A DNA stretch of 64,000 bases from Acidobacteriota bacterium (GTDB lineage Bacteria > Acidobacteriota > Blastocatellia > UBA7656), in contig JACQDB010000048.1 in the NCBI GenBank assembly GCA_016201275.1, forward strand, positions 1-64,000. Reading direction: 5' to 3'. The notes beneath the pieces were generated by a model, which saw only the letters and a program-made list of their open reading frames with translations, had not been told where the DNA came from and did no database searches. Positions 11,265 to 52,100 of this stretch are shown here, one piece after another (position 1 is the first letter of the stretch; every line of letters starts with the position of its first letter). Made by a program: the position numbers and the translations under genes.

Positions 11265-11289
11265 GGAACTTTACATTTCAGTGGGCGTG
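11265..11289 (+). promoter_or_regulatory. Candidate ECF-type promoter
   Basis: GGAAC (11265-11269), a 16-base spacer, then CGTG (11286-11289). This approximates the ECF-sigma consensus GGAAC-N16/17-CGTC and lies 44 bases before the sigma-factor start, suggesting autoregulation. One base departs from consensus. Confidence 0.4.
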
Positions 11290-12079: not shown

Positions 12080-12805
12080 ATGATGAATTGCACGACGATT
12101 AAACGCCTGATTGATGAAGCCGAGCATCGCGATGTGCTGCCTTTTGAAGCAACCAATCATGTCAATGATTGCGCCTCCTGTCGCCACTTTGCCAACGAGC
12201 GCGCCGGGTTGCGCTATCTGTTGAGCGACATTCCACGGGTCAGCGCGCCTACGTATTTCGACGCCCAATTGAAAGCCCGATTGGCAGAAGCGAAGGCGAA
12301 ACCAGCTTTCGCTTGGCTGAATCCGACGCTCTATTTTCGCCTCGGTACGGCAACCGCCGCCTTGTGTATTGCAGTTTTCGCCCTGCAATACAGCGGCGTA
12401 ATTTCGTTGACCAACACCACGGCTTCCAAGTTGACTCCCACTACGATTGCGCCATCGCCCATGCCGACAACGCCGCAGCAAGCGAGTGACACTTTAGCGA
12501 TAAAGCCATTGCCGGAAGTTGCTCAACCAACGCCCACGCTGCCCCCTGCAACGGCGACGGTAAACGCGCCAGCGCCGTCAAGATTGATAGCTCATGCAAA
12601 AGCCAATCGGGTGCAGCCCAACAATAGCCAAGCCTTGGATGATTATGCGATAAGCGGTATGCCGCGTGTCTTCATTCGCAACAATCGCGGTCAGGAAATT
12701 GAATTACCGATGCAGCCGATCAGTGTCGGCGCGCAATCACAACTCTTGCGCCGCGCCGCACGTTCGTCCGCTTCACCTGTGGTGATGCAGCCGGTATCGT
12801 TTTAA
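12080..12805 (+). CDS. Zinc-finger anti-sigma factor, membrane-anchored
   Basis: 241 residues. The start at 12080 is preceded by AGAGAAG. The N-terminus has an anti-sigma zinc-finger pattern, His27-x3-Cys31-x2-Cys34 (NHVNDCASC). A single membrane span follows at about residues 92-115 (YFRLGTATAALCIAVFALQY). The remaining Pro/Thr/Ala-rich periplasmic part has no recognised domain. It should hold the upstream sigma factor inactive at the membrane until an envelope signal triggers release. Protein family and pairing are well supported; the signal is unknown. Confidence 0.85.
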   Translation: MMNCTTIKRLIDEAEHRDVLPFEATNHVNDCASCRHFANERAGLRYLLSDIPRVSAPTYFDAQLKARLAEAKAKPAFAWLNPTLYFRLGTATAALCIAVFALQYSGVISLTNTTASKLTPTTIAPSPMPTTPQQASDTLAIKPLPEVAQPTPTLPPATATVNAPAPSRLIAHAKANRVQPNNSQALDDYAISGMPRVFIRNNRGQEIELPMQPISVGAQSQLLRRAARSSASPVVMQPVSF

Positions 12806-12852: not shown

Positions 12853-14541
12853 ATGAGTAGAAATTTTCTAAAAACTCTGATACTCCTTTTTGCGTTGACC
12901 CCCTTGGTGCAAGGACAAACGCCTGTGCCGCCGCCAAAAGTACAGCCGCGTATTGCCGCTCCGATCCCCACGCCAGCGCCAGCGCTGACCGATGCGATGT
13001 CAGCCAATCCCAATGTCCACGTTGCCGAATGGGTGGTGTCGGTCATTCATAAAGTGGAGGTGAACAAATTGCTTGAGCGGATGCGAAAAGAGACCCGCGC
13101 CCAAGTCGGCGTTCCCGGCTCGATGCCGGAATTCGTTTACAACGTCACGACCGGCGTGGTTATTGACGACCACGGTCACATCATCACGCGACTTGCCAAT
13201 CTCGACCCCGAAGATAAAGAGCAGAACATTTCGATTGTGACCAACAGCGGCCAAAGCCTGCCCGCCAAGTTCATCGGCCTCGATTGTCCTTCCGGCTTTG
13301 CCGTACTGGAAGTTGCGGCTTTGAAAGTTGCGGCTCCCGAAACCGCGCCGCCGGTAACGCAAGGCAAGCTGGTCAGAATTTTGAGCGCCGACGTGGAGCA
13401 AAAAGTCGCCGCGAATAATTATCCGAAGCGCTTTGACATTCTGCCTTCGATTAAAGCCATGAGCGGACAGATTGAAACGGAAAGCCCGTATGCCCAGGCG
13501 CGTGGTGCCTTGACCCTGCGTTCGGCAAATCTACGCTCGCGCAATGACAGCGCCATTGTCACGACGCTTGAAAACCAACTCGTAGGCGTCGCCCAGTACG
13601 TCGGCTTTGGTCGCGCTTATTTGTTTCCCATAGATTTACTTCGCAACACCATTGCCAAACGGGTTCTCGAAAAACAGGCGACGGTGCTGACGGGTTGGCT
13701 TGGCGTGACCGGCGAAAATCTTTTTCAAATGTCGCCGCAGGAATTTCAAGCCCTCGGCATTGAACGCCGCATCGGCGTGGTGGTCAAAGAAGTTTCGCCC
13801 AACAGTCCGGCAGCGCAAAGCGGCCTCAAAGCCAAAGATGTCATCATCGGCTTTGATAATTTCGAGGTTGCCAGCACCAATGATTTAAGCACCTTTCTGT
13901 CGTCGTCGCCTTCCGGCAAAACCATCACCTTGCGAACCATCCGCGATCAACAGCCCGTAGAAATTCATGTCGTGTTGGGCGTCAAAGCCAGTTCGCAACC
14001 GCTGATTGCCGTGCAGCAATTCGAGGCGCAACCGCAAACCATCGCCGGTCAAATTGATGAAACCCGCCGCCGCATAGAAGAATTGCAGGGGCAATATCGG
14101 TTCTATCAAAAAATGCCGAAGACCGACGAGCGCGAAGAATCGCTCAAGGAGTTGACCATCGAATTGCGCGAACTCTTTGAAGCCATGCGCGTGCTGGAAG
14201 CAGCACAGGCCGAAGAGAACTCGAAATATCCGGAAGCTAATTCCTACAGCACGCAGCCGGTCAAGAAAAGCTGCACCCTCAAGACCGGCTTTACCGCCTG
14301 GGAAATGCCCAAACAACTGGCCGACAGTTTTGGCACTCCGAAAAGCGTGCTGGTGGACAGCGTCAGAAAAGGCAGCGCGGCGGAAGTCGCCGGATTGAAG
14401 GCCGGTGATGTATTGGTCAGCGCGACCGGCGAAGCGTTAACCTGCGCGCAAACCGAAGCCTTGTTTGCCAACCCTTTTGCCACGCTGACTCTGCGAGTGC
14501 TACGCAAAAAACAGCCGCTCTCGCTCCTCATCAAACCGTAA
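12853..14541 (+). CDS. HtrA-like two-PDZ protein with lost protease triad
   Basis: 562 residues with a signal peptide (MSRNFLKTLILLFALTPLVQG). The trypsin-like half aligns by eye with DegP/HtrA, but the catalytic positions are replaced. The His motif reads GHIITRLANLD, with Ala where NNHV has His. The Asp motif reads DCPSGFAVLEV, with Gly for Asp. The usual GNSGGPL reads RNDSAIV. PDZ1 covers about residues 285-375 (GWLGVTGENLF, VKEVSPNSPAAQSGLKAKDVI). A coiled coil lies near 395-445. PDZ2 covers about 460-560 (SVRKGSAAEVAGLKAGDVL). It probably works as a PDZ sensor or scaffold for the adjacent sigma/anti-sigma pair, not as a protease. Confidence 0.8.
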   Translation: MSRNFLKTLILLFALTPLVQGQTPVPPPKVQPRIAAPIPTPAPALTDAMSANPNVHVAEWVVSVIHKVEVNKLLERMRKETRAQVGVPGSMPEFVYNVTTGVVIDDHGHIITRLANLDPEDKEQNISIVTNSGQSLPAKFIGLDCPSGFAVLEVAALKVAAPETAPPVTQGKLVRILSADVEQKVAANNYPKRFDILPSIKAMSGQIETESPYAQARGALTLRSANLRSRNDSAIVTTLENQLVGVAQYVGFGRAYLFPIDLLRNTIAKRVLEKQATVLTGWLGVTGENLFQMSPQEFQALGIERRIGVVVKEVSPNSPAAQSGLKAKDVIIGFDNFEVASTNDLSTFLSSSPSGKTITLRTIRDQQPVEIHVVLGVKASSQPLIAVQQFEAQPQTIAGQIDETRRRIEELQGQYRFYQKMPKTDEREESLKELTIELRELFEAMRVLEAAQAEENSKYPEANSYSTQPVKKSCTLKTGFTAWEMPKQLADSFGTPKSVLVDSVRKGSAAEVAGLKAGDVLVSATGEALTCAQTEALFANPFATLTLRVLRKKQPLSLLIKP

Positions 14542-14688: not shown

Positions 14689-15675
14689 ATGAAAAACAAT
14701 CCGCTGCCGAGACTCGATACTGCCGAGGAAATACGCCAGCAACTGTTGCCCTTTTGTCGGCTCAAGCGCGGCGAGGTGTGGACGGATCCGCTCGGCAAAC
14801 ACTCGGTCGCCTGCCTGGATGCTACCGACAAAACTGCCGTGAAAACTTTACTGGCCGGACAGCAAGCGCAACTTGCCGTTCACGATCCGCCTTATAATCT
14901 GGTCGCCTTTCAGGAATCTACCAGCACCAAATTCATTGACTGGTGCAGAAAATGGGTCGCCAATTCCATAGAGGTTCTGGACCACAACAGTTCTTTTTAT
15001 GTGTGGCTAGGCGCTGATCAAAATCATGATTTTCAACCTTTCCCGGATTTCATGTTGATGATGCGCGACTTCCCTTTGCAGACGCGCAGCTTTATCACCA
15101 TGCGAAATCAACGCGGCTACGGCACACAAAAAAACTGGATGGCGGTTCGGCAAGAGTTGCTCTATTACACCAGAGGCAATCCGGTATTCAACATCGCAGC
15201 CGAATACACAGACATTCCGAAAATCCTGCGCGGCTACTATAAAAAAGTGAACGGCGTGCTAACGGAAAACGGCGAGCGCGGCAAAGCCGACACCATCCGC
15301 GCCGGTAATGTATGGGTGGATATTCAACAAATTTTTTACCGCATGGAAGAGAACGTCTCCGGCTGTTACGCGCAGAAGCCTTTGAAAGCCATCGAGCGCA
15401 TACTGCGCGCCAGTTCCAGCAAAGGCGATCTGGTGATTGATTTCTTCGCCCATTCGGGAACCACGCTGCTGGCGGCAGAAGTGCTTGAGCGCCGCTGTTA
15501 CACCATTGATATTGACCCGATTTTTTGTGAGATCACCATTCGTCGCTTGGAGCATTATCGAAGCGCACATCAACTTGGCTGGCAAAATCGTCATCCGTTT
15601 GAAAACGACTTGCCCACCTTCGCCCATCTTACCGACGATGCGGATTCCTGGTCGTCATCGTCCACGCCATGCTGA
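14689..15675 (+). CDS. DNA adenine/cytosine-N4 methyltransferase, beta class (orphan)
   Basis: 328 residues. The catalytic motif IV DPPYNL is at 66-71 and the AdoMet-binding motif I DFFAHSGTT is near the C-terminus (251-259). This order (IV before I) defines beta-class amino-methyltransferases. DPPY favours N6-adenine methylation by analogy with CcrM-like enzymes. No restriction endonuclease or specificity subunit is adjacent, so it appears orphan: regulatory, phage-derived, or half of a lost system. The C-terminus ends in a Ser-rich tail (DSWSSSSTPC). No clear ribosome-binding site precedes the ATG. Confidence 0.88.
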   Translation: MKNNPLPRLDTAEEIRQQLLPFCRLKRGEVWTDPLGKHSVACLDATDKTAVKTLLAGQQAQLAVHDPPYNLVAFQESTSTKFIDWCRKWVANSIEVLDHNSSFYVWLGADQNHDFQPFPDFMLMMRDFPLQTRSFITMRNQRGYGTQKNWMAVRQELLYYTRGNPVFNIAAEYTDIPKILRGYYKKVNGVLTENGERGKADTIRAGNVWVDIQQIFYRMEENVSGCYAQKPLKAIERILRASSSKGDLVIDFFAHSGTTLLAAEVLERRCYTIDIDPIFCEITIRRLEHYRSAHQLGWQNRHPFENDLPTFAHLTDDADSWSSSSTPC

Positions 15676-49162: not shown

Positions 49163-52100
49163 TTAAAAAATCACTTTCGCTTTGTACTGCACGACCCGTC
49201 CGGGGAAGGCCGAATCGAAACGTCCGAAGCCGCCGGTGTCGCGGAAGTTGTTATTCGGCACGGTGTAGATAGCCGAGTTGAAGACATTCTGGAAATCGAA
49301 GCCGATTTGCAGTTTGAAGCGTTCGGTAATCGCCGTGTTCTTGACCAGCGAGGCATCCCAACGCACGAGGTTCGGACCGTGGAAAGTGTTGCGTCCTAGA
49401 CTGCCGAATTTAATCGTGCTGCCTGCCGCATTGGTCACCTGTAGGTTGCCGCCGGTGAAGGCCGCCGCATTGAGATAACGCCCTTTGGTATTGGCAAACG
49501 GATCGCCGATCAAGGTCGCACGACGGCTGCCATTATCACCATCAACCACAGTAAACGGATAGCCGCTGCGTGCCGACACAATCACCCCAAGTTGAAAGCC
49601 GCCGAGAATTTTATCGCCGATGCCTTCCTTGAGATAAGTGTGGCCTTTGCCAAGCGGTATATCAATGATGGCGTCCGCCGATAACAGATGACGAACATCG
49701 AGCGACGAGTCGCCACGTTCGCAAGTCAAACAGAAGGGATTTTGCGGACCGCCGGAACTGCCGCGCCCTTCGCCTATGCCGGCAAAGACGCCGGTGGAAT
49801 CGTCAATGTTGTGACTCCAGGTGTACGACACTTGCCCTTGAATATTATTCGACAGGCGCTTGCGAAGTTGGGTCTGCAAGGCGTCGTATTTGGAACTGGC
49901 GCGATTTTCATAAGCCGTAGCGGGCAGGAATTGACCTTTGGAATTTTTGGCCAAGGCCAGACCGCCGCCGCCTATATCACGAGTCGCCAGAAGATTTTTC
50001 GACTTGTTGTGAACGTAACCGACATCTATCGCCCAATCTTTGCCGAATTGATATTGATAGCCCAGATTGAACTGATGGACATAGGCGGTCTTCTGTTTTG
50101 GATCTACATAAAAGACCACGACGTTGCTGGGGATATTATTGGAATCAACGACCGCGACATTCGGCGGCCCGGTCTCCAGATTGAAGACGCTGCGTGGCGT
50201 CGAACTATCGAAAGCGTTGTTATAGGTGACGCTGTTGGTGAACGGCGGATTCTGCACCAGCGGTGGTTTGTCGGTGGCGTCCAGCGTGTAAAGCAAGCCG
50301 TAGCCGCCGCGCAACACCATAGTCTTTTCAGGATTCAAGGCATAGGCAAAACCGACGCGTGGACCGAAATTATTTTTGTCGGTCTTAATCACACGGTCGC
50401 CGCTGCCATCGGCTTTGCGTATGGTTCCGGTCGCCAAATCGAAATTCCCCAAGCGTCCTTTCGCTTCGGTTGCGGAGGGAAAGAGGTCGTAACGCAGACC
50501 CAAGTTGAGGGTCAAGCGATCATTGACTTTCCAATCATCCTGCACGAACAGGCCGTATTCCTGTGAACGCAGATTGAAAGCGCCACCCGGCACATTGCCA
50601 CGGAAGGTTTGCAGCGCCGCGACATCGCGCAGCAACATATTGGCGATGGCCAAGTTGGTGCCGCCGTAAGCAATGCCGTTGGCATCCACGTAGCAAGCGC
50701 TCGCCGTGCCGGAACCCGTAGGGCAATTAGGATTCGGGCCTGTGGCAGGGCCATTGTCGGCATAGGCGAGGTTGCCTTTCAAACCGCCGGTGCGTCCGCC
50801 ATCAATGGTTCGCAAATAACGCAAGCGCACTTCTGCGCCAACCTTATAGTTGTGGTTGCCACGTATGATGGTGAGCGAATCCGCGAAATAAGGATTCTTG
50901 CTGTTGACGATGAACGGGCCGCCATCTCCGGCAAACTCTACGAAGCCGTTACCGAAGCCGCCGGTTAAGATAGTGCCGGATTGCTCGAAGGTGCCGTTGT
51001 TGACATTGGGAATGCCAACATCCGCCGACAAAGTTGCGCTGTGACCGCACGCGCCGCCAACGCCGCAATTGAGAATGCCGATGTTGATTTTGGTGAAGCC
51101 AAAACGGAATTCATTCAAGGTCGTAGGGGTGAATTGATGCGTGTCGCTGACCACGAGTTGACGAGTGTCGCCAGCCTCTTCGCCGGCGCCAAAGCCTGCC
51201 GAAACTTTGGGGAAGAACGAATCCCTGAGTCCGGTGTAATTCTGGTGATTGTAGCGCCCAGAGAGATTGTTCTTGTCGGTCAAGCGGTGATCAATCTTGA
51301 TGCCATAATTATCAATCACCTCGCGCACGCGGCGCGTGGAGAAGAAATTGTTATTGCCCTGGCTGGGATTCAAAACACTGGCCGTGGGCAAAGGGAAAAG
51401 ACCGAAGAAGCGTTGCGTCACCGGACTCAAACGATTGGCCGGAACGCGATTGCCGGGAAACGGCAGACCGGTGCGCGGGTCTTTGACCTGAACATTGGTG
51501 TATTCGGAAAAATCGCCGTTGCGAACTTTTTCAGAAGGCACGGTGGAGGCCAGCGGTGACGGAAAATTATTCCGCGCTCCCAGATAATCAAAGAAGAAAA
51601 AGGTACGGTTTTTAAAAATGGGGCCGCCAAAAGTGCCGCCGTATTCATGCGTTTGCTGCGTCGCTTTTACCGGTAATACCTTGTCGCCTCGAGCAATAGC
51701 TTCGCCGCGATTGCGCTTGAGAATCGGGTGATAGGCGTTGAGGTCGGAGTTGGAGCCGTAATAGTACAGCGAGCCGTGATATTCGTTGGAGCCGGATTTG
51801 ACCACGGTGTTGATGACCGCGCCGGAAGCGCGTCCGACTTCGGCTTGCGGCACGCTGGTGCTGACTTTGAATTCGGCGATAGCGTCGGGATTGACGAACA
51901 CGCCTATGGTGCCAAACTGCGGTTCGTTATTGTCCACGCCATCAACTGAAAAATTATTATTGGTCGGGCGTTGACCGTTGGCGGAAATCACCGCGCCGCC
52001 GGAACGCGAAAAGCGCGCCGCTTCGGAAGAACCACGCGAGTCACCGCCGCCGGGGCCTTGGCCGCCAGCATTCGGGTCGCCGTTGTTGTTGGCGCGAGCG

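Follow-up and report, generated by a model that had tools for sequence, protein, structure and literature searches.

Among the closest described systems is the E. coli sigma E system, RseA-RseB-DegS-RseP, which has in common with the locus reported here an ECF sigma factor, a membrane anti-sigma factor, an operon-encoded periplasmic protein that is not a protease, an HtrA-type PDZ domain and RseP. RseB belongs to a family other than HtrA. E. coli RseB is the model for gating of anti-sigma proteolysis (PMC8103513), and the PDZ domains of DegS and AlgW read C-terminal peptides of outer-membrane proteins (OMPs) or MucE (PMC8545111, PMC8103513). The Pseudomonas AlgW/MucD/MucA-MucB system also ties HtrA-fold proteins to an ECF anti-sigma factor. 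In Mycobacterium the sigE and rseA-htrA-tatB genes place sigma, anti-sigma and htrA genes side by side, as here (PMC10027907). However, HtrA of mycobacteria is described as a serine protease that is essential and has a cell-wall amidase as its substrate, and phosphorylation, redox state and ClpC1P2 regulate mycobacterial RseA (PMC10027907). Loss of catalysis from an HtrA fold, with the scaffold put to new use, is known from MamO and other magnetosome HtrA pseudoproteases (PMC4794232), although MamO binds metal, acts in biomineralisation and is not part of a sigma/anti-sigma operon. Guarding of an anti-sigma factor from proteolysis when the inducing signal is absent is described for TonB-dependent transducers (PMC11637429); the guard in that account is an outer-membrane receptor rather than a PDZ pseudoprotease.

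The locus reported here differs from the E. coli system in that the operon-encoded partner is a two-PDZ pseudoprotease of HtrA fold (hereafter dead HtrA), and in that a PDZ-ligand-like C-terminus sits on the anti-sigma factor itself. The open-licence literature searched yielded no account of a sigma/anti-sigma operon that includes a dead HtrA, and the module is apparently undescribed; the finding on the tails of the adjacent anti-sigma factors is new here.

Gene map and the triad-less HtrA

The window (the whole stretch of DNA analysed, 64,000 nucleotides) carries the operon on its forward strand, with the following features.

11265..11289, + strand: ECF-type promoter of the operon, GGAACTTT-N13-CGTG, one of two exact matches in the genome
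11334..11972, + strand: ECF sigma factor (Pfam Sigma70_r2/r4; orthologues 57-87% identical in the same position)
12080..12805, + strand: membrane anti-sigma factor (H33/C37/C40 motif; AF2 model)
12323..12391, + strand: predicted transmembrane helix of the anti-sigma factor, residues 88-110 (AF2 helix; hydrophobicity peak)
12794..12802, + strand: C-terminal Val-Ser-Phe of the anti-sigma factor, candidate PDZ ligand (tail pattern in 61/61 anti-sigma factors)
12853..14541, + strand: dead HtrA pseudoprotease, secreted, with two PDZ domains (ORF of 562 residues; Pfam, alignment, AF2)
12853..12918, + strand: Sec-type signal peptide of dead HtrA, read off the sequence MSRNFLKTLILLFALTPLVQGQ
13033..13677, + strand: triad-less trypsin-like domain (alignment, AF2, VIA-align)
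13195-13197, 13294-13296 and 13546-13548, + strand: codons of A115, G148 and D232
13693..13980, + strand: PDZ1 with the carboxylate-loop motif GWLG (Pfam; column conservation)
14041..14226, + strand: helical hairpin between PDZ1 and PDZ2 (AF2 helices 397-419 and 425-458)
14269..14538, + strand: PDZ2 (AF2; D519 invariant)

The sigma factor has Pfam region 2 at residues 45-113 and region 4 (r4_2) at 152-202 with no region 3, the architecture of an ECF sigma factor; its closest NCBIfam model is SigW, although its score lies under that model's cut-off. The longest anti-sigma ORF begins at TTG 12062, and ATG 12080 is the likely start. In the anti-sigma alignment H33, C37 and C40 (H..CxxC) are near-invariant, which together with one transmembrane segment places the protein among the zinc-type membrane anti-sigma factors. 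Its AF2 model has four helices, the membrane helix at 88-110, a disordered linker and a hairpin at 202-216. Dead HtrA occupies an uninterrupted ORF of 562 residues beside these two genes, as the first-pass annotation had read the neighborhood, and no lipobox cysteine is seen in its signal peptide, MSRNFLKTLILLFALTPLVQGQ.

Three side observations concern the surrounding DNA. A DNA methylase gene (14689-15675; N6_N4_Mtase, E 1e-27) lies between dead HtrA and glycosyltransferase genes; since dead HtrA directly adjoins a glycosyltransferase gene in the relatives L039-L041, the methylase looks inserted in the window lineage. The window also holds an Oar-like TonB-dependent beta-barrel gene (49187-51805), one of about 30 in the genome. 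Finally, the 25-mer GGAACTTTTGAACAAAGGTCAAGTG is repeated at least seven times in the window's genome, with three copies at contig ends (copies in G000 include C59:15-39, C62:16-40, C143:14-38 and C17:86784-86808). This repeat element seems to break the assembly.

The catalytic columns of the window protein were located by alignment with an active homologue of DegP type (L064, from a related genome), in which these places read TNEHVV, TDLAVIK and GNSGGPL. The His, Asp and Ser columns fall on A115, G148 and D232, the Ala/Gly/Asp replacement that had been proposed from the window alone. Both PDZ domains are retained, again as first read, and their Pfam models score 51-70 bits; the trypsin-like domain scores 24.2 bits with Trypsin_2, under the 27.6-bit cut-off. 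AF2 models the protein in an HtrA fold, PDZ domains included, at a mean pLDDT of 84. With this model Foldseek returned DegQ as the best match (E 1.7e-24), with DegP, DegS and AlgW also matched, and VIA-align gave Z scores of 22.6 against DegQ and 22.5 against AlgW. Pseudomonas AlgW, whose PDZ domain reads C-terminal peptides (PMC8545111), is thus among the nearest folds, but AlgW is an active protease bound to the membrane, whereas the window protein has lost the triad and has a signal peptide instead of an anchor. A trypsin-like fold followed by PDZ domains is the architecture of the HtrA/DegP S1C family, and the His-Asp-Ser triad of that family's proteases is missing: the protein is an HtrA by fold and not an HtrA protease by its triad. 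Nor does it have the N-terminal anchor, single PDZ domain and triad of the DegS/AlgW site-1 proteases, having instead a signal peptide, two PDZ domains and no triad. With the HtrA fold modelled and the catalytic columns aligned, an intact triad elsewhere in the protein, which would have overturned the initial reading, was not found; the triad is gone from a folded HtrA domain rather than relocated.

The order ECF sigma factor, membrane anti-sigma factor, dead HtrA recurs at about 60 loci across the Acidobacteriota. A first homologue search covered 58 related genomes, and nearly all of the best-match loci inspected had the three genes in this order; the exception is L064, whose ordinary active DegP-like protein served as the control. 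A search of the phylum with the anti-sigma alignment as query, together with 40 further loci that were then inspected, revealed the trio in more families of the class and phylum, again without the triad. Comparison with the same locus in relatives had been suggested as a check, and each adjacent orthologue aligned lacks the triad. Because this holds across the phylum, the loss is far beyond chance. The His column holds A, V, S, I, M, T, P or Q, the Asp column mostly G, and the Ser column D, N, S, G, P or I. As the triad positions vary by lineage, there is no conserved substitute catalytic residue: none is invariant among the orthologues. The alignments indicate that catalysis was lost long ago and that the loss has been kept since. 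A lone decayed gene was rejected as an explanation, given the same operon with a dead triad in relatives and across the phylum.

Anti-sigma tails and PDZ domains

All 61 anti-sigma factors encoded beside a dead HtrA have the hydrophobic segment, and all 61 end in one of six residues (F in 28, H in 14, L in 8, Y in 6, W in 3 and I in 2); the window protein ends PVSF. When the set was reduced to 45 divergent tails, 84% ended in F, W, Y or H; the corresponding share among 444 long ORFs of these loci was 8%. Positions 0 and -1 are the only ones at which sequence entropy drops, the remainder of the tail being divergent. Among 16 related anti-sigma factors without a dead HtrA neighbor (6 PDZ fusions and 10 others), a comparison set of more distant paralogues, there were two such endings, one W and one I. 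The difference in F/W/Y/H endings between HtrA-adjacent and other anti-sigma factors gives a Fisher p of about 1e-8, although the sequences are related and the counts therefore overstate their independence. PDZ domains bind a free bulky residue at the C-terminus of a disordered chain, and by sequence the tail has the mark of a PDZ C-terminal ligand, a hydrophobic end residue conserved amid divergence. The tail is a PDZ-ligand-like C-terminus and a candidate ligand of dead HtrA. On the side of the receptor, few stretches of dead HtrA are as conserved as the PDZ1 loop GWLG, in which G284 is invariant and W282 nearly so.

Two natural experiments bear on which PDZ domain is involved. At six loci of one f3 genus and a neighbor (L126-L130 and L132) the sigma gene is followed by an anti-sigma gene with a C-terminal PDZ domain; these operons have no separate dead HtrA and their anti-sigma factors no hydrophobic tail, all six ending in R or P. 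In 6/6 fusions the PDZ domain scores higher with the PDZ2 profile than with the PDZ1 profile. The other case is L116 of the same family, f3, which has lost PDZ1 and kept PDZ2 and has the tail TPQH, whereas its sisters end in W. Few as these cases are, they suggest that the tail docks on PDZ1 and that PDZ2 serves a different purpose. The six fused anti-sigma factors have also lost the H..CxxC motif.

Promoter and predicted regulon

The motif GGAAC-N15-17-CGT precedes the sigma gene in 42/58 operons versus 3.8 expected from shuffles, and the operon promoter has the conserved form GGAAC-N16-CGTG. The exact promoter occurs twice in the genome, before the operon (11265-11289) and about 50 nt upstream of a gene encoding a secreted two-PDZ protein of 361 residues with no protease domain. 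That gene (L153:363-1448; G000:C79) is conserved across the class, and 16/20 of its orthologues there have a matching promoter. Of the 16 exact matches in the family's seven genomes, 13 precede either the operon or the two-PDZ gene, and in one genome of another family, f16, a two-PDZ gene adjoins an anti-sigma gene. A search allowing one mismatch was not enriched (31 matches versus 78 in the reversed control), so the promoter assignments are limited to exact matches and their conservation. Two f3 genomes (L206 and L208) have the exact ECF promoter before a secreted protein of about 220 residues, the two being 42% identical to one another. No Pfam family matched the scanned part of the L208 protein, which with its L206 relative is a possible further member of the regulon.

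A non-cutting switch and its alternatives

The genome encodes RseP (309.7 bits) and an anchored HtrA with an intact triad and one PDZ domain, L036, which fits the DegS type; the two proteolytic steps that usually remove an anti-sigma factor are therefore both possible. We propose, with a probability of roughly 55%, that dead HtrA uses PDZ1 to bind the tail of the anti-sigma factor and, in the manner of RseB, governs proteolysis of that factor, within an ECF envelope-stress switch. The anti-sigma factor would hold the sigma factor in the cytoplasm, span the membrane once and send a disordered chain into the periplasm, where the chain would end in a short hydrophobic or aromatic C-terminus. This free end would be bound by the PDZ1 groove of the non-cutting dead HtrA, and the complex would gate destruction of the anti-sigma factor by the site-1 and site-2 proteases (L036 and RseP), with PDZ2 left free as a sensing domain. 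By analogy with E. coli RseB, the resting complex would most likely shield the anti-sigma factor until displaced by a periplasmic ligand. The freed sigma factor would then transcribe its own operon and the gene for the second, secreted two-PDZ protein, which may feed back on the same ligand pool. Dead HtrA would work most like RseB or MucB, a likeness of role; structure searches (Foldseek, VIA-align) with the dead HtrA model return HtrA folds.

Unfolded OMPs may be the natural competitors in the class, as they too end in F. The genome's own OMPs end in F in 14/15 cases and otherwise in W, and the anti-sigma factors of the class mostly end as its OMPs do (F or W). Universal OMP mimicry by the tail was rejected, because BamA ends in F in lineages whose anti-sigma tails end VSH. 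A more specific scheme, which we regard as tentative, would invert the sigma E logic: the OMP-like tail of the anti-sigma factor docks on dead HtrA until the C-termini of unfolded OMPs displace it by competition and so expose the anti-sigma factor to proteolysis, and the two-PDZ protein closes the loop.

The presence of L036 and RseP, together with the reading of OMP or MucE C-termini by the DegS and AlgW PDZ domains (PMC8545111, PMC8103513), would also fit a tail that is a ligand for the PDZ domain of L036 or RseP, with dead HtrA a decoy competing for the tail or for the ligands of the protease PDZ domains. This reading we hold to be rather improbable: the tail tracks an adjacent dead HtrA and is absent from the PDZ-fused and most of the other anti-sigma factors lacking such a neighbor, yet HtrA homologues occur throughout the class. 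The tail could still be read by the PDZ domain of RseP, of the DegS-like protease or of the two-PDZ protein. A little less probable again is that dead HtrA is a general periplasmic holdase or chaperone of the sigma regulon that makes no contact with the anti-sigma factor. HtrAs of the DegP type can act as chaperones without cutting, and the sigma factor is predicted to control a secreted two-PDZ protein as well, but a holdase leaves the conserved anti-sigma C-terminus, the anti-sigma::PDZ fusion and the joint loss of PDZ1 and the W tail unexplained.

The two remaining readings assign a function to the trypsin-like domain itself. It might, like MamO, an HtrA pseudoprotease whose di-histidine motif binds transition metal (PMC4794232), bind metal or another small ligand and relay this to the sigma factor; we consider this unlikely, as His109 is invariant in the near family only and the most conserved columns of dead HtrA contain no common metal motif. 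Least probable of all is cutting through an unconventional active site, for which sequence comparison found no support and against which stand the variable triad positions with no invariant replacement. Dead HtrA, then, probably holds the switch rather than cutting it. The first-pass annotation had imagined a PDZ-based sensor that presents the anti-sigma factor or binds misfolded proteins without cutting; its notion that a PDZ protein acts on the anti-sigma factor but does not cleave gains support from operon conservation, the anti-sigma tails, the anti-sigma::PDZ fusion, the joint loss of PDZ1 and tail and the shared promoter, whereas sensing of misfolded proteins, and a protecting or a presenting role towards the anti-sigma factor, are carried forward as proposals.

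If correct, this scheme would mean that, throughout the phylum, a conserved HtrA has given up proteolysis to regulate a sigma factor without cutting, and that HtrA PDZ domains are able to signal without protease function. The three C-terminal residues of the anti-sigma factor would be a precise molecular handle, testable by peptide binding. It would also give this soil phylum, which is very abundant and has been little studied, a pathway for envelope stress, complete with a promoter prediction and a second gene under its control.
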